Made by a program: the position numbers and the translations under genes. Source: Planctomycetota bacterium (GTDB taxonomy: Bacteria; Planctomycetota; Planctomycetia; Planctomycetales; Planctomycetaceae). From it: 48,018 bases of DNA. The notes under the pieces were generated by a model, which worked only from the letters and a program-made list of their open reading frames with translations, was not told the origin of the DNA and ran no database searches. The stretch is from contig VGZH01000043.1 in NCBI GenBank assembly GCA_016872645.1, positions 1 through 48,018 on the forward strand, in the 5' to 3' direction. Below are positions 1-48,018 of this stretch, piece by piece; the first letter of the stretch is position 1; the number at the start of each line of letters is the position of its first letter.

Positions 1-2366
1 TTGCTGGTTTCGGCGAGCGTCTTGGTCAGTTCGGTCAGTTCGTGGTAGTGCGTGGCGAACAGCGTGCGGCAGCGGATTTGATCGTGCAGGAATTCGGTGA
101 CGGCCCAGGCCAGCGAAATGCCGTCGTAGGTGCTCGTGCCCCGGCCGATCTCGTCGAGGATCACGAGGCTGCGGTCGCTGGCGGAGTTCAGAATTCGCGC
201 GGTCTCGGTCATCTCGACCATGAACGTGCTCTGACCTTTGCTAAGCTCATCGCTCGCGCCGACGCGGGCGAAGATGCGATCAGCGATCCCGATGCGCGCT
301 TCGCTGGCGGGGATGAAGCTGCCCATCTGAGCCATGATCGTCAGCAGCGCGGCTTGCCGGATGTAAGTGCTCTTGCCGGCCATGTTCGGGCCGGTGATGA
401 GTTGGACGCGGCCATGGGATTTCCGAGTTCGGAGCTCCGTATTCCGAGTATTCGGAACTTGCGGTTCGTCGCCACTTAAACCTTGGAGCTCGGCACTCGG
501 AACTCCTAGCTTCACATCATTCGGCACGAACGATCCGGACGGCATCAGCTTGTCGAGCACGGGGTGGCGGCCTTCGCGGATGTTAAGGATCGGGTCTTCG
601 GTCAACTCCGGACGGCAGTAACCTTGGTTGACGGCCAGCGTGGCCAGCGCGGCGAGGACATCGACTTCGGCGAGTACGTCGGCGGTCTGTTTCAGGCGAG
701 ACGTTGCAGCGGCGACCCGGTCGCGCAGAGCGTTGAACAATTCCAGTTCGAGCGAGATCGCTCGCTCTTCGGCTCGCAGGACTTTGTCTTCGTACTCTTT
801 CAGTTCGGGCGTGATGAAGCGCTCTTGGTTTTTGAGCGTTTGCTTGCGGATGTATTCCGGCGGAATCTTCACGGCTTGAGCGGCGGTGACTTCCAGATAG
901 TAGCCGAAGACCTTATTGAAGCCGACTTTCAAATTCGGCAGGCCGAGCCGTTCGGATTCCTTCGCCTGGTATCCGGCGATCCATTCTTTGCCGCCACGAG
1001 CGAGGTCGCGGAGTTCGTCGAGCGTCGCGTTGAAGCGGGTGCGGATCATGCCGCCGTCAGTCGTGAGCAACGGCGGTTCGTCGACGAGCGTTGCGTCGAT
1101 GTCGGCGCGAATCTCGGCGTTGAGATCAAGGTCGGCTTCGAGCAATTGCAGCAACACGCTGTGTCGTCCGGCGAGTTTGGCTTTGAGCTTGGGGAGCAAC
1201 GCCAGCGAGCGCGTCAAGCTCCCGAGATCTCGCGGACTGGCGCGGCCGGTGGCGACCTTCGCGGTCAGTCGTTGCAGGTCATAGGTCTCGGCGAGAATCT
1301 CGCGCAAGTCGCGACAGAACATCGTGTCGCGAGTCAGTTCCTCGACGGCATCCAGTCGGCGATTGATTGCCGCGATATCGGTCAGCGGATTCGACAGCCA
1401 ATCGGCCAGTAGTCGCGCGCCCATCGCCGAGACGGTTGCGTCGAGAACCGACAGCAGGCTGTTGTCGCGCTTGCCGTCGCGAATCGTGCGAGTCAGTTCG
1501 AGACTGGCTCGCGTGGCTTCGTCAATGAGCAGCGACGTGCCGCGGCGATAAGGTTCCAACCGGCTGATGTGAGCCAGCGAACTCTTCTGCATTTCTTGGA
1601 CGTATTCCAGCAACGCCCCTGCCGCCGTGACTCCGGCAGAAGTCGAGTCGATGTCGAAGCCTTCGAGCGTGGTCGTGCCCAAGTGCTTCAGCAGTGCCGT
1701 GTGACAAGCCGCCTCGGCCCAGTACCACGCGGCGCGCGGAGTCAGCAGCACGGTTCTCGCGAACAGCGGCCGCAGCCGCTCGTCGTTCGCGAGATGTTCG
1801 GGGTACAGGCACTCGCTTGGGCGGATGCGAGCGAGTTCGTCGGCCAGCTGAGCCGGTTGCAGATCGGCGGTGACGAAGCGACCGGTCGAAACTTCCAGCC
1901 ACGCCAGACCGACAGCTCCCGATCGGCTCGGCCAGACGCTGGCGAGGAAGTTCGATTCGCGTGGGTCGAGCAACGCTTCGTCGGTCAGTGTGCCGGGGGT
2001 CACGACTTGCGTGACCTCGCGCTTGACCATCCCTTTGGCGAGCTTCGGATCCTCCATCTGCTCGCAGACGGCGACGCGATGACCGGCGGTGATCAGCTTT
2101 CGCAGGTAGCCTTCCAGTGCGTGATATGGAAATCCCGCCATCGGGATCGGGTTCGGCGAGCCTTTGTCGCGGCTGGTCAGCGTCAGACCGAGCACTTTCG
2201 AGGAAACGACGGCGTCCTCGAAAAAAATCTCATAGAAGTCCCCCATGCGAAACAGGAGGATCGATCCGGGGTTCTGCCGTTTGACTTCGAGGTAACGCTC
2301 CATTGCCGGTGTGAGATTATGCGGCGCGGGATTTGTGGCAGACGTTTTCTCCGGCGGCTGGCTCAT
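1..2366 (-). CDS. mutS: DNA mismatch repair protein MutS (3' end outside window)
   Basis: Recognises mispaired bases and small loops and, with ATP, starts methyl-independent mismatch repair together with MutL. The minus strand is open without a stop from ATG 2366 to the window edge, about 788 codons. The mismatch-contacting GDFYE motif lies near residues 42-46 (Phe44, Glu46). The clamp and lever regions follow, and the Walker A motif GPNMAGKS is at about residues 659-666. A Walker B-like [15 protein letters not shown] and the FATHYHEL motif follow before the edge. The last 80-100 residues are missing only because the window ends. About 29 residues just before Walker A (about 621-649, encoded by 421-506) have no counterpart in ordinary MutS and are built from GAG/CTC-rich palindromic DNA; they look like an in-frame repeat insertion. 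The start is the first Met of a compact N-terminus. Family identity is certain. Confidence 0.97.
421..506. repeat. palindromic sequence inserted in frame within mutS
   Basis: This 86-bp stretch contains TTCCGAGT...ATTCGGAA (421-457), a central GGAGCTCC, and GGAG...CTCC arms at 485-506. Its short GAG/CTC words (ccgagt, ggagct, cggaact) recur several times. It is read through by mutS without breaking the frame and adds about 29 residues directly before the Walker A strand. The word set resembles the low-complexity intergenic repeat at 17757-17845 (gagtgccgagtgc). Treating it as a mobile or amplified repeat is inference; the inverted symmetry and the extra residues are seen directly. Confidence 0.55.
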
Positions 2367-2474
2367 GTCATCCTCAGGCTGAGAGTCTTGCAATGCGGCG
2401 GCAGAATAACGGGCGTGTTCGCAAGAATCTTGTTCGCTGGGAAAGACCGATCAACGAGCTGGTCAAAATGCCAT

Positions 2475-2535
2475 CAGCACGACGCGTCTGCGAGAGGTTG
2501 TGACGCTCGAACCACTCGCTGGCGCGTCGTACTGG
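2475..2535. repeat. dispersed palindromic element, family A copy 1
   Basis: An imperfect inverted repeat with arms of about 25 bp (2475-2499 and 2510-2535) around a 10-base centre. The right arm matches the right arm of the element at 15816-15841 in 23 of 26 positions. It begins one base after the TAG of the selenoprotein-like gene on the minus strand and lies upstream of mutS, so the transcript could fold into a long hairpin immediately 3' of that gene. It has no T-run, so a classical intrinsic terminator is not supported; a REP-like mRNA-stabilising role is possible. Confidence 0.6.
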
Positions 2536-2751
2536 CTAAGTGAGCTTCGACAACACTTCGTCGTGTGTCGGAAAGCGACCGGTCTGGTGCTTGCTGTAGA
2601 TCAACTTCCCGTCGGCGACGATCTCGAAGATGCCGCCTCCACCGGGAATCAATGTCGGCTCGACACCGAATCGCTGCTGAATCGCGGCCGCCAGACTGGT
2701 GGCCTGTGGTTTGTAGTTTCACGGCATGCAGTAGGTGATGCGAATGTCCAT
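2536..2751 (-). CDS. Rdx/SelW-like thioredoxin-fold protein, candidate selenoprotein (UGA at codon 11)
   Basis: A 71-residue protein of the Rdx family (SelW/SelT/SelH-like), small redox proteins with a beta-alpha-beta-beta thioredoxin-like fold and a CxxC or CxxU active site on the first loop. Reading from ATG 2751 gives MDIRITYCMP, then an in-frame TGA at 2719-2721, then NYKPQATSLAAAIQQRFG and a normal C-terminus containing GKLIYSKHQTGRFPTHDEV, ending at TAG 2536. The TGA sits exactly where the second redox Cys or Sec belongs (C8-M-P-U11). Downstream codons are intact, and no second lesion is present. A stem-loop with a GU-starting apical loop follows at 2686-2704, as expected of a bacterial SECIS. 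No start codon after the TGA could yield a protein with the redox motif. The alternative is a Cys codon TGC mutated to TGA, or a sequencing error. selA/selB/selC are not in this window. The ribosome site is weak (GGAA about 8 bases upstream). Confidence 0.75.
2686..2704 (-). promoter_or_regulatory. candidate bacterial SECIS hairpin
   Basis: On the coding (minus) strand, the RNA after the UGA contains GGCC-A-CCA-[GUC]-UGG-C-GGCC. This is a 7-pair stem with one A/C mismatch and a 3-base apical loop starting with GU. Twenty-two bases separate the UGA from the loop. Known bacterial SECIS elements need a small apical loop with a G in its first two positions and a UGA-to-loop spacing of roughly 16-37 bases, so it fits. 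A 19-base hairpin in GC-rich coding DNA could also arise by chance; the position is what makes it notable. Confidence 0.55.
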
Positions 2752-2872
2752 GAGAGGTTCCGATTAAAAGTCTGAGTTTCCGGCGGGCATGTGAAATCGA
2801 GTTGTCGTCCGCTGAGGAGCAGCGTACGTTCTCCGCCTCTCGAACCAGGCGATTTGACAATGGAGGCCCGGA

Positions 2873-3556
2873 ATGAGCAACTTAGGAAAAGAAATGAGGA
2901 GTACATCGGCGGGTCGCCGAATTCCGATGTGGCTCAAGGTGCTCTACACCGCGTTCGTCTGTGTGCTGGTTCCTGTCTATTGGCGGGACTACGGTCTGAC
3001 AAACTTTTTGTATTTCTGTGACGTGGCGGTGTTCTTCACGCTGGCCGCCGTGTGGTCCGAGTCTTCGTTGTTGGCATCGATGCCGGCGGTGGGAATTCTG
3101 GCTCCGCAGTTGTTGTGGATGGTGGACTTTCTTGGGGGATGCGTCGGGTTGTCGTTGACCGGCATGACCGCCTACATGTTTGACGAACGAATTCCGATTT
3201 TCACACGCGGTCTGTCTCTCTTTCACTTCTGGCTGCCGATCCTGATCGTGTGGTTGGTCTGGCGATTGCGTTACGACAGCCGGGCGTTTCGCAATTGGGC
3301 AGTCTTGGCCCTGGGTTTGATCCTGATGTGTTACTTCGGAATGCCTGCTCCACCGGCACCCGCGGAGAATCCCAACCTGCCGGTCAACATCAACTATGTT
3401 TACGGGTTGAGTAGTGATCGGCCTCAGACTTGGATGCCACCGCTGATTTATCTTGGCTTGATGATCGTCATCTTTCCGCTGGCGATCTTTTTGCCGACGC
3501 ACCTGGTATTGCAAAAGCTATTCGGCCATCGCTGTGACGCAATACGTTCGGCATGA
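2873..3556 (+). CDS. conserved multi-pass membrane protein of unknown function
   Basis: 227 residues with about six to seven hydrophobic segments: around residues 21-37, 46-66, 70-100, 115-135, 142-156 and 190-212. Motifs such as YWRDYGLTNFLYFCDVA near the N-terminus, the proline-rich turn GMPAPPAPAENPNLPVNINY and YGLSSDRPQTWMPP are the kind conserved in the 'membrane-associated protein' families of planctomycetes and Bacteroidetes. I recognise the type but not a function. The start at 2873 is followed by a possible internal Met (residue 8). It is divergent from the SelW-like gene and is followed by convergent cytochrome DNA. No ribosome site stronger than GGAGGCCCGGA upstream is seen. Confidence 0.8.
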   Translation: MSNLGKEMRSTSAGRRIPMWLKVLYTAFVCVLVPVYWRDYGLTNFLYFCDVAVFFTLAAVWSESSLLASMPAVGILAPQLLWMVDFLGGCVGLSLTGMTAYMFDERIPIFTRGLSLFHFWLPILIVWLVWRLRYDSRAFRNWAVLALGLILMCYFGMPAPPAPAENPNLPVNINYVYGLSSDRPQTWMPPLIYLGLMIVIFPLAIFLPTHLVLQKLFGHRCDAIRSA

Positions 3557-3587: not shown

Positions 3588-5480
3588 TCAGGGAATGGCG
3601 CGGCGTTTGTGCCAATCGGCCTGCTGCTGTTCGCCGGCTTTTGCAAATCGCTCGGCCAATGCCTGATGGACTCTCCACAATCGCGGATTGATGCGTGTGG
3701 CGGTCAGCAACGCCAGTTGCACGGCCTCCGGGTGTTCCATTCGTTGTTCACATTCGGCGAGGAGCAGCCAGTCGACATGGTGACGCCGCAAGCGAGTCAA
3801 CTGCTGAAGTGTCGCGACGGCTTCTTTCCATCGGCCTGCTTGGAAGTGCGAATCAGCCAATAAAAACAATGCATTGGAGCGATCCTGGCCATCCAGCCCC
3901 TTCTGAGACAGCGTGCTCTCGGCCAGTGATTGCGTGCCGGGGATTTCCAGTTCGAAATGCAATCGAGCCAATGCCGCATCCAGCATCGGATCTCGCAGAC
4001 CAGTCGTGCGGGCATTCGTCAGCAAGTCCAGTGCGCGCTGGCGGTATTGGTCGGCCAGGTCTGGCTGAGACTCTCGATTCGCCGCCTCCAAATAGGCGAG
4101 GCCGAACGTTCGCTGCTGGTCGAGTTCGCTGGGCCACGATTCCATCAGAAAAGGACGCAGCACTCCCGGACGACTGGCGGGCGACGGACCGGCAACCGAC
4201 GATTTTGCGACCGGCTGGTGAACTCCAATTCGGTGGTGCGTGAAAGCGAGATGCGGAATCTCGGTGTTCGAACTGGGCATGTGGCATTGCACGCAATCAT
4301 TATCCGGGCTGAGCTTTCGCCGCTGCGATACCTCCTCGCGGCAATGTTCAGGGCGATGGCAACTCAGGCAGATGGCTTGATGAGGTTTCGATTTCTGCTC
4401 GCCTCCGACATCGTGCGGGGCGTGACACGTCAGGCAGGTCAGCTTGTTCGATTTTTGATAGCAACGGCTGAGATGCAATTGCTCCACATGACCAACGACG
4501 GTCATCGGCTTGTCGGGAACGTCGAGCCAAAAGTCCGTACGAAACTCCTGCAACCGCAGGCCGGGACGGAAATCGCTAATTTGCCGGCCTCGCGTGAGGA
4601 TGGTGGCAGTGCTGCGCAGATGGCATTGCTGACAGACCGCCTCGCTGAGCTCTCGCGACAAGTGGCTGGGATTGACGATCGTGCGATCGAGTTCAGTTTG
4701 TGAATCTGCCGCCGCGGTTCGTTCGCGGTGCTTTTCGACATGCAACTCACCGGGGCCGTGACAGCGTTCGCAGCCAATGGCCGCCTCAAAGATGTGCATG
4801 CGATGCAGGCTCTTGTCGAGGGCCTCCGCTCGGCTGGCGTGGCACGTCAAACAGCCCTCACCGGTGGCTCTTTCAAAGCCGGAGTGTTCGGCAACGTCGT
4901 AGCCCGGAGACATGCCCCAAGCCTTGCGCGACATGTACCACGTCAAGGGGGACTCCACTAAAAAACCATCCACTTCGACCAAGTAGGTCAGCGAGTGATG
5001 CCCCGAACCGATGACAAATTTCACGGGGTACTCGGCCAGCAACACTTCGGCGGGATCATCAACAAGCAGTAATTCGCGATGCCACAATTGCCCGTCGTGT
5101 CTTCGGACTTCGTAGCGGCGTTTGGAAACTGGATGCTCGAACTCGCCATCGGGCGGCTCACGAGTCAGATCGACGTCCGCCATCGAGCGGCCCATGCCCG
5201 TGTGCCGAAATGCCGCGTCATGGTCTGCGTGACACGTCCGACACGCTTCACTGCCGACGTAGGCGACATCCGGTTTCGTGTTGAGAAATGGACTCTCGGA
5301 AATCGTCGGCAACGGAAATGATTTGGCCCCCGCCGAGTTCGGCTGATTGGCCTGCGGCAGCGGTGGCCGGCGTGTCCAAACGACCAACGAGATGAAGACC
5401 AGGACCGCAAAACTGCCGATCAGCCACAGATGCCACGCCCGAGACGCTTTCACCGATTCGCGACGCGAAGGTTCGTTCAT
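3588..5480 (-). CDS. membrane-anchored seven-haem cytochrome c with TPR C-terminus
   Basis: 630 residues. An N-terminal cytoplasmic stretch and a single membrane segment (about residues 17-36) anchor the protein, with the rest presumably periplasmic. Seven CxxCH haem-binding motifs are at about residues 80 (CRTCH), 210 (CLTCH), 237 (CERCH), 283 (CQQCH), 349 (CLTCH), 371 (CLSCH) and 396 (CVQCH). This arrangement resembles the cytochrome c554/c-prime-like multihaem family (PF13435 type). Residues about 440-630 form helical TPR-like repeats (for example ADQYRQRALDLLTNARTTG and GRWKEAVATLQQLTRL). It probably carries electrons or acts as a multihaem oxidoreductase scaffold; the partner is unknown. 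ATG 5480 was chosen because GGAG precedes it; the frame is open much further upstream but that part lies inside the next gene. It follows the 5504-6247 gene by 23 bases and is probably cotranscribed with it. Confidence 0.88.
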   Translation of the reverse strand: MNEPSRRESVKASRAWHLWLIGSFAVLVFISLVVWTRRPPLPQANQPNSAGAKSFPLPTISESPFLNTKPDVAYVGSEACRTCHADHDAAFRHTGMGRSMADVDLTREPPDGEFEHPVSKRRYEVRRHDGQLWHRELLLVDDPAEVLLAEYPVKFVIGSGHHSLTYLVEVDGFLVESPLTWYMSRKAWGMSPGYDVAEHSGFERATGEGCLTCHASRAEALDKSLHRMHIFEAAIGCERCHGPGELHVEKHRERTAAADSQTELDRTIVNPSHLSRELSEAVCQQCHLRSTATILTRGRQISDFRPGLRLQEFRTDFWLDVPDKPMTVVGHVEQLHLSRCYQKSNKLTCLTCHAPHDVGGEQKSKPHQAICLSCHRPEHCREEVSQRRKLSPDNDCVQCHMPSSNTEIPHLAFTHHRIGVHQPVAKSSVAGPSPASRPGVLRPFLMESWPSELDQQRTFGLAYLEAANRESQPDLADQYRQRALDLLTNARTTGLRDPMLDAALARLHFELEIPGTQSLAESTLSQKGLDGQDRSNALFLLADSHFQAGRWKEAVATLQQLTRLRRHHVDWLLLAECEQRMEHPEAVQLALLTATRINPRLWRVHQALAERFAKAGEQQQADWHKRRAIP

Positions 5481-5503
5481 CGATCGCTCTCCGCGATGCC
5501 TGC

Positions 5504-6247
5504 TCAGCGCGTCGCAATGGCTTGCGCCAGCGGACGGAGAATCGGATCGACGACCAATTCCTCGATCAATTCGTCGCAGCGGCTGCGCAGCTTGTCGAGC
5601 GTTTGCTCGAACGTGCCCCCCGGTTCGAGGCTGCCGTACTGCCGCAGCGTGAAATAGACGCTGATGTTTTCCTCGGGGTACTCGCCACGGCGGACGTGAT
5701 AGGCGTTGGTTCGCGTCTCGATCATCAGCCGCGCTTGCATCCGGCACGACTCGTCGAGCGTCAGCGTGATCGCTGGTTCGTAGTTGAGGACTCGTGCGCC
5801 GGGAATTCGTACCAGGCCGTCTATGGCCGGGCAACCGCCGAGTGCCTCGGCGACCAACTCGTCGTGGTTGCCGCGGTACGCCATATCGAAGCCCATCATG
5901 AAGTCGAGCGCTTCGCAATCCAGCGGACTGACCGAGAGCATGTACGGCAGAAGTTCGAGCGTCAGGCGATGCTGCTCGACGGCAGTATTGATGTCCGGCG
6001 GGTTGAGAAATCCGCTGCAAACTCGTTTGGGTTCGACCGAGACCCAGCGTTGGTGGCCGAGGTCTTTGTCTTCTTCGAGCACGCAGTCGCCGGTCTCGCG
6101 GGTGTAAAAGTTCCGCATCATCGGATACGACTTTTGGATTCGCTCAAAGAATCCCAAAATCGTCTCACGAGCGGCCGGCAGCGGCATCTCGGTGCTGAGG
6201 TTCATATTGCAATAAAAGTCATCGACGTAGGAGTCGAAGGCCAACAT
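5504..6247 (-). CDS. conserved hypothetical protein
   Basis: 247 residues starting MLAFDSYVDDFYCNMNLS, preceded by AGGA at a good distance from ATG 6247. It is soluble, with no signal peptide or membrane segment. The composition is that of a folded cytosolic protein (charged helices, conserved-looking WVSVEPKRVCSGF, ALDFMMGFDMAYRGNHDEL, VLNYEPAITLTLDESCRMQ). I believe close relatives occur across planctomycetes without a known function. The frame stays open to 6343, but that extension lacks a ribosome site. It is upstream of the multihaem cytochrome in the same orientation and 23 bases away, suggesting an operon. It is divergent from ogt. Confidence 0.8.
   Translation of the reverse strand: MLAFDSYVDDFYCNMNLSTEMPLPAARETILGFFERIQKSYPMMRNFYTRETGDCVLEEDKDLGHQRWVSVEPKRVCSGFLNPPDINTAVEQHRLTLELLPYMLSVSPLDCEALDFMMGFDMAYRGNHDELVAEALGGCPAIDGLVRIPGARVLNYEPAITLTLDESCRMQARLMIETRTNAYHVRRGEYPEENISVYFTLRQYGSLEPGGTFEQTLDKLRSRCDELIEELVVDPILRPLAQAIATR

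Positions 6248-47663: not shown

Positions 47664-48018
<355 letters not shown>

Follow-up and report, generated by a model that had tools for sequence, protein, structure and literature searches.

The minus strand of the window (the whole 48,018-nucleotide stretch that was analyzed) carries at 2536..2751 what is, with a probability of about 96%, a genuine SelW-like (Rdx) selenoprotein gene, here called rdx, whose UGA at codon 11 would be decoded as selenocysteine (Sec). We infer Sec insertion in this organism from sequence, namely from the reading frame, its protein family, the conservation of the TGA, the Sec machinery of the genome, the selection acting on a hairpin and the predicted fold. 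The window corresponds to contig C43 in a 5.76-Mb draft genome with an estimated completeness of 99.99%, and a tmRNA with the tag ANRQFSLAA lies at its right end (47701-48016, plus strand). Read from 2751 to 2536, the gene consists of ATG (2751-2749), nine further sense codons, TGA (2719..2721), 60 sense codons and TAG (2538-2536), which gives the 71-residue translation MDIRITYCMPU NYKPQATSLAAAIQQRFGVEPTLIPGGGGIFEIVADGKLIYSKHQTGRFPTHDEVLSKLT. Because an in-frame TAA (2764-2766) is found shortly upstream of the ATG and TAG terminates the gene, the frame is closed at both ends. The sequence-only reading had described an intact 71-codon frame broken by a single TGA at codon 11, and this can be read directly from the minus strand; other lesions are absent from the translation of 2536-2751. 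A gene caller stopping at TGA would reduce rdx to 10 codons.

Judged by its profile matches, the frame is an Rdx frame far beyond chance. It scores 71.3 bits with the Pfam Rdx family PF10262 (curated cut-off 22.6), 59 bits with TIGR02174 (cut-off 34.2) and 90.4 bits, just above the cut-off of 88, with NCBIfam NF041051 ("SelT/SelW/SelH family (seleno)protein", SelTWH_Campy); the SelW/Rdx-like identity proposed from the letters holds. A six-frame profile search of the whole genome recovered the same frame at 63.1 bits, flagged with one TGA, together with a second Rdx copy on contig C34 that is stop-free and has CxxC. The redox motif C8-M-P-U11 follows the first strand (residues 3-8 in the model), and both its Cys (TGC, codon 8, 2728..2730) and its TGA are invariant (n = 20 sequences). 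An AlphaFold2 model, computed with Cys at residue 11 in place of Sec, has a pLDDT of 97.1 and a predicted thioredoxin-like Rdx fold that superimposes on SelW-related 2fa8 with a TMq of 0.92 and an rmsd of 1.1; by sequence, the nearest structures are 2fa8 and 2ljk (Protein C17orf37). The product would be a 71-residue thioredoxin-like protein in which the Cys8-x-x-Sec11 pair cycles between selenol/thiol and selenenylsulfide. It is most likely a small thiol/selenol redox protein acting through this Cys8-Sec11 selenenylsulfide, and the pair would most likely reduce a substrate or hand electrons to it.

A hairpin downstream of the TGA

A bSECIS-type hairpin is located at 2686..2704 on the minus strand. 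Its stem-loop starts at the 15th base after the TGA and, counted from the T of the TGA, pairs columns 18-24 with 30-36 around the loop AGUCU (2697-2693); six of the seven stem positions are paired, the remaining one being an A.C mismatch, and 21 nt separate the TGA from the loop. The minimum free energy (MFE) is -13.1 kcal/mol when the 45 bases that follow the TGA are folded and -9.9 kcal/mol for the hairpin alone. The published rules for bSECIS elements are a loop of 3-9 nt, an upper stem of 4-16 bp, a G within the first two loop positions, a distance of 16-37 nt from the UGA and an MFE of -7.5 kcal/mol or lower (PMC13188914), and these rules, applied by hand, accommodate the window hairpin in its loop, its stem, its spacing and its energy.

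On the evidence of aligned sequences, the hairpin covaries and is under selection. A related set of 59 genomes was assembled from this genome and 58 relatives. It holds 20 copies of rdx with the TGA, and the 18 distinct sequences among them form standard pairs in 86.5% of the pair cells, as compared with 13.5-51.6% for slid structures. Covariation scores 0.322, as compared with 0.179 (sd 0.029) for shuffled alignments, of which 0/500 are equally high, and changes on both sides of a pair occur in 14 cells (0/500 shuffles as high) and in four of the seven pairs (6/500 as high). The hairpin could nevertheless be a by-product of the coding sequence, with Sec insertion independent of it, as its weak RNAalifold consensus energy (only -3.05 kcal/mol) and the lack of an Rfam match (E up to 10, window 2500-2800) might suggest. 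Because the hairpin region is coding, a second control was added in which codons were exchanged among sequences sharing the amino acid in the same column. Such codon shuffles alone give 75.0% paired cells (sd 0.7%), as a by-product would, yet not one of 1000 attained the observed 83.3% (top shuffle 77.3%, with 105 distinct sequences). Either shuffle control destroys the kinship among the sequences, a loss that can raise such scores on its own, whereas the slid structures preserve it. The 105 distinct sequences derive from 123, since the sample sets overlap; of 26 phylum loci, 23 were used, three (L076, L096 and L101) not having been placed by the text pattern. The loop reads [AG]GT[CT]T in 95 of the 105 and differs in the other 10, and 101 fold to -7.5 kcal/mol or lower, with four above this value. 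None of ten CxxC copies, drawn from the 19 stop-free ones listed (the copy L046 of genome G011 being left out), has the loop motif. Scanning the window strictly for the motif yielded two TGA codons followed by such a hairpin, 1.2 being expected in base shuffles, and only the one at 2721 precedes a long frame (60 codons vs 11).

Two genes from another family have this loop motif after their TGA as well, which also argues against a by-product. A search of the genome for AhpC-TSA proteins gave 30 matches, two of them with one TGA, on contigs C5 (L196, TGA at locus position 682) and C93 (L197, locus position 803). Both genes read FGCLT-U-PPF, match Redoxin as well as AhpC-TSA, and score 28.5 (C5) and 35.2 (C93) with the iodothyronine deiodinase family PF00837 (cut-off 27). 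Their loops begin 24 nt after the TGA and read AGTCT (C5) and GGTCT (C93), on stems with 6/7 pairs (-6.2 kcal/mol) and 7/7 pairs (-10.0 kcal/mol), respectively, both energies being those of the hairpin alone; when the 45 bases following the TGA are folded to minimum energy, the hairpin is present for C93 and absent for C5. These deiodinase-like genes probably encode two additional selenoproteins, and a deiodinase-like protein is among the bacterial selenoprotein families listed in PMC13188914. Molybdopterin enzymes (PF00384) gave five matches in the genome, none with an internal stop. The loop common to rdx and the deiodinase-like genes suggests what the local SelB may read. Taken with the slid structures and the codon shuffles, it makes a hairpin without a part in Sec insertion very unlikely, and the covariation of the hairpin, together with its recurrent loop, could be used to look for further planctomycete selenoproteins.

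Selenocysteine machinery and the decoding of UGA

In the Sec pathway, SelD synthesizes selenophosphate, SelA converts Ser-tRNA-Sec to Sec-tRNA-Sec, and SelB delivers Sec-tRNA to the ribosome. The sequence-only reading had named selA, selB, selC (tRNA-Sec with a UCA anticodon) and selD as genes to look for, and all four are present in the genome: tRNA-Sec on contig C16 (75.3 bits; identified by ARAGORN as tRNA-SeC, anticodon TCA), SelB on C36 (333.5 bits, cut-off 242.25), SelA on C27 (519.5 bits) and SelD on C23 (297 bits, within a 753-codon frame). SelB has its GTPase domains, the SelB beta-barrel, PF09107 (SelB-wing_3) and PF25461. In this organism, SelD would supply selenophosphate, SelA would convert Ser-tRNA-Sec(UCA) into Sec-tRNA-Sec, and SelB would bind, through its C-terminal winged-helix part, the hairpin that closely follows the UGA and carry Sec-tRNA to the ribosome.

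The specificity of these searches was gauged in 14 control genomes. SelA (1e-20) matched in E. coli alone, SelB (1e-60) in E. coli and M. jannaschii, and SelD (1e-20) in four, with scores above the cut-off in two (E. coli and M. jannaschii). The tRNA-Sec model matched in 14/14 controls and exceeded its cut-off in five; since weak matches are unspecific, only tRNA-Sec matches above 60 bits were counted. By these thresholds, the 20 genomes of the related set with a TGA copy of rdx all have SelB (vs 13/39 of the others) and SelA (in two pieces in G006), 19 have SelD (absent from G006), and 16 have tRNA-Sec. In G010 and G021, tRNA-Sec copies are interrupted by a contig end inside the gene, and no tRNA-Sec was found in the drafts of the congeners G002 and G003, which have the TGA copy, SelA, SelB and SelD. 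Such absences in the related genomes are soft because the genomes are drafts.

Several features of the machinery genes were observed alongside. The tRNA-Sec gene (L102-L109; from this genome, its congeners and G021) occurs both whole and in fragments, the latter comprising either bases 1-46 followed by other sequence (G005, L107, and G009:C2) or bases 29-94 (G009:C103 and G010:C23). The 18 bases common to both fragment types are the anticodon arm, and the fragments look as though an integrative element had used tRNA-Sec as its attachment site. The selD frame of this genome (L198) has a long N-terminal part, which we take to resemble an NADH-dehydrogenase-like flavoprotein, and selD frames of more than 700 codons are found in 11 of the 12 genomes of the genus. 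In G041, a single strand carries rdx, followed by selD, selB, selA and finally tRNA-Sec, over a span of about 5.2 kb (G041:C184:24632-29790), and the selD of this cluster has one TGA inside its match.

With a complete set of Sec genes in the same genome, decoding of the UGA at codon 11 as some other residue, for example Cys or Trp via an unusual tRNA, is less likely than Sec. The idea has some precedent in that CxxC, CxxG and one Ala form are known in other Rdx branches and paralogues. It would have to be reconciled, however, with a tRNA-Sec carrying the TCA anticodon beside SelA, SelB and SelD, with a hairpin conserved after the TGA beyond the need of the protein, and with a TGA that terminates an ordinary gene of this genome, the second Rdx copy. 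We consider it exceedingly improbable, and Sec remains the preferred reading of codon 11.

Conservation of the TGA and of the gene

Within the related set, an Rdx match is found in 30/59 genomes and a copy with one TGA in 20/59 (this genome included), and in 20/20 of these copies the TGA is the U of CxxU. Six of the 12 genomes of the genus have the TGA copy, and none was shown in the other six. One of these other six, G011, has a broken rdx (L046, G011:C48) in which only profile positions 16-72 are matched, with a TAG inside; this match does not include the part with the TGA and the hairpin. Pairwise comparisons pooled across six congeners give a pN/pS of 0.229 in codons 1-10 and of 0.243 in codons 12-70, and these low values on both sides of the TGA indicate that both halves of rdx are kept as protein. 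A pseudogene or sequencing error with the TGA as a true stop, to which the table 11 reading (ending after 10 codons) and the broken 3' part in G011 might point, is rejected as extremely improbable, given the identical TGA in 19 relatives from the related set and in all 80 named loci described below, the selection on either side of the TGA and a frame free of other lesions.

The phylum at large was sampled with 392 genomes, this one included (Rdx match threshold 1e-5). A match is found in 143/392, and in at least 138 of these genomes a copy has a single TGA somewhere within the match. The five that were not counted are G062 and G389, which have a stop-free copy among the matches listed, and G195, G223 and G341, which have no entry among the matches listed. 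SelB (1e-60) is found in 127/138 genomes with a TGA copy vs 109/254 others (Fisher p 7.6e-24, the genomes not being independent), and it was not found in 11/138, with three candidates scored per genome. A further search of named genomes used only the part of the protein after residue 11 and recovered 85 relatives, of which 80 were kept; the TGA and a Cys three residues earlier are found in 80/80, in a search that was blind to residue 11 and relied on patterns derived from the branch of the window gene, so that a distant Cys offshoot would escape it. The titles of these records name Planctomycetota, Deltaproteobacteria, Acidobacteria, KSB1, Gammaproteobacteria and others, the taxa being those given by the depositors, with at least one that appears wrong (L171, titled Kuenenia). 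The sets overlap, as several named loci are contigs of genomes in the related and phylum sets.

Copies with a residue other than Sec were also found. Seven of the 11 stop-free phylum copies among the matches listed were read at the Sec position: two have Cys (G389 and G062), four have Gly (G204, G398, G189 and G370), and one has Ala, with Ser replacing the first Cys (G121). Unrelated residues in relatives had been named in the sequence-only reading as evidence against Sec; the Gly and Ala copies are taken as paralogues because a TGA copy accompanies them in each of the five genomes, and the reading stands. Among Rdx paralogues (L199-L203), CVPG, CEVG and CELG motifs, or Ala at the Sec position (L203), are seen in proteins ending in EIFYH or EIAYH. 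The alternation of Cys and Sec that had been anticipated at residue 11 was borne out with a shift of emphasis: relatives share the TGA and Cys occurs in other Rdx branches, but the branch of the window gene itself is near-exclusively Sec. As Sec is never replaced by Cys in the 80 kept loci, which were found without using residue 11, and as some genomes keep a Gly or Ala paralogue beside the Sec copy, this branch might be an obligate selenoprotein, although we regard this as doubtful. If true, obligate Sec would imply a chemistry for which sulphur is insufficient. With Sec used almost exclusively, the reason for preferring it to Cys can be tested in a protein of 71 residues.

Downstream of rdx lies mutS (mismatch repair; 3..2393, minus strand), which runs off the window, and upstream are a divergent ORF of 227 residues (2873..3556, plus strand; no Pfam match at E 0.01) and a frame with cytochrome c3-like and TPR matches (3588-5783, minus strand). 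A gene similar to mutS is found downstream in five congener loci, as is, by eye, a gene similar to the cytochrome c3-like frame upstream in five congener loci. The largest clusters of neighbors among the 80 named loci comprise six loci each, the mutS cluster consisting of five congeners with the gene downstream and one other locus. Gene neighbors as a hint to function were dropped, as nothing is common beyond close kin in these 80 loci. In the related set, rdx immediately precedes selD in 5/20 TGA-bearing genomes; no selA, selB or selD is found near rdx in the 80 named loci or in 26 phylum loci with flanks of about 1.5 kb, and the neighbor search for sel genes recovered the loci already known to hold selD. 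If this branch is indeed an obligate selenoprotein, the position of rdx directly before selD in five genomes would point to a possible role in selenium handling itself, although no selD was found in any of the 80 wider loci.

Relation to known SelW-like proteins

To a selenoprotein specialist, a selenoprotein in this family will be unsurprising, and it is well supported. The existence of bacterial SelW-type proteins with CxxU, on which the sequence-only reading had drawn, is documented in the literature. A SELENOW-like family (PF10262, CxxU) is listed among bacterial selenoproteins as "predicted with high confidence" (PMC13188914). From the Sargasso Sea, 48 SelW-like genes with Sec (CxxU) were reported alongside seven Cys homologues (PMC1088965), a table elsewhere has the row "Selenoprotein W like 35 35" (PMC5029168), and SelW-like proteins were placed among the families whose Cys homologues are very rare or lacking in organisms that use Sec (PMC1794560). 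Work on planctomycetes describes Sec machinery and selenoproteins in P1 and P2, and machinery in G. obscuriglobus and I. pallida (PMC4807772); "SelW" occurs 0 times in the main text of that paper, whose list of selenoprotein candidates is a separate supplement. No title on planctomycete SelW-like proteins was found in the literature searched, which is not proof that there is none.

Like the bacterial SelW-like selenoproteins, the window gene encodes a small Rdx domain with CxxU and has a TGA with an in-gene bSECIS-type hairpin. No difference of kind was found between the two, and the excerpts compared describe no planctomycete member. The Agrobacterium protein 2fa8 and the C34 Rdx copy of this genome share the family and the fold of the window protein and differ from it in having Cys instead of Sec; the C34 copy is also without the loop motif of the window hairpin. 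Mammalian SELENOW (mouse, 2npb) has the Rdx fold as well (32.5 bits in a profile match, TMq 0.69 with the model), at an identity of only 24% in the fold alignment. In eukaryotes, the SECIS element sits in the 3'-UTR, in contrast to the in-gene hairpin of rdx. Mammalian SELENOW also has the CxxU motif (PMC8508763). Set beside these systems, the window gene is a well supported additional member of the already known SelW-like family.
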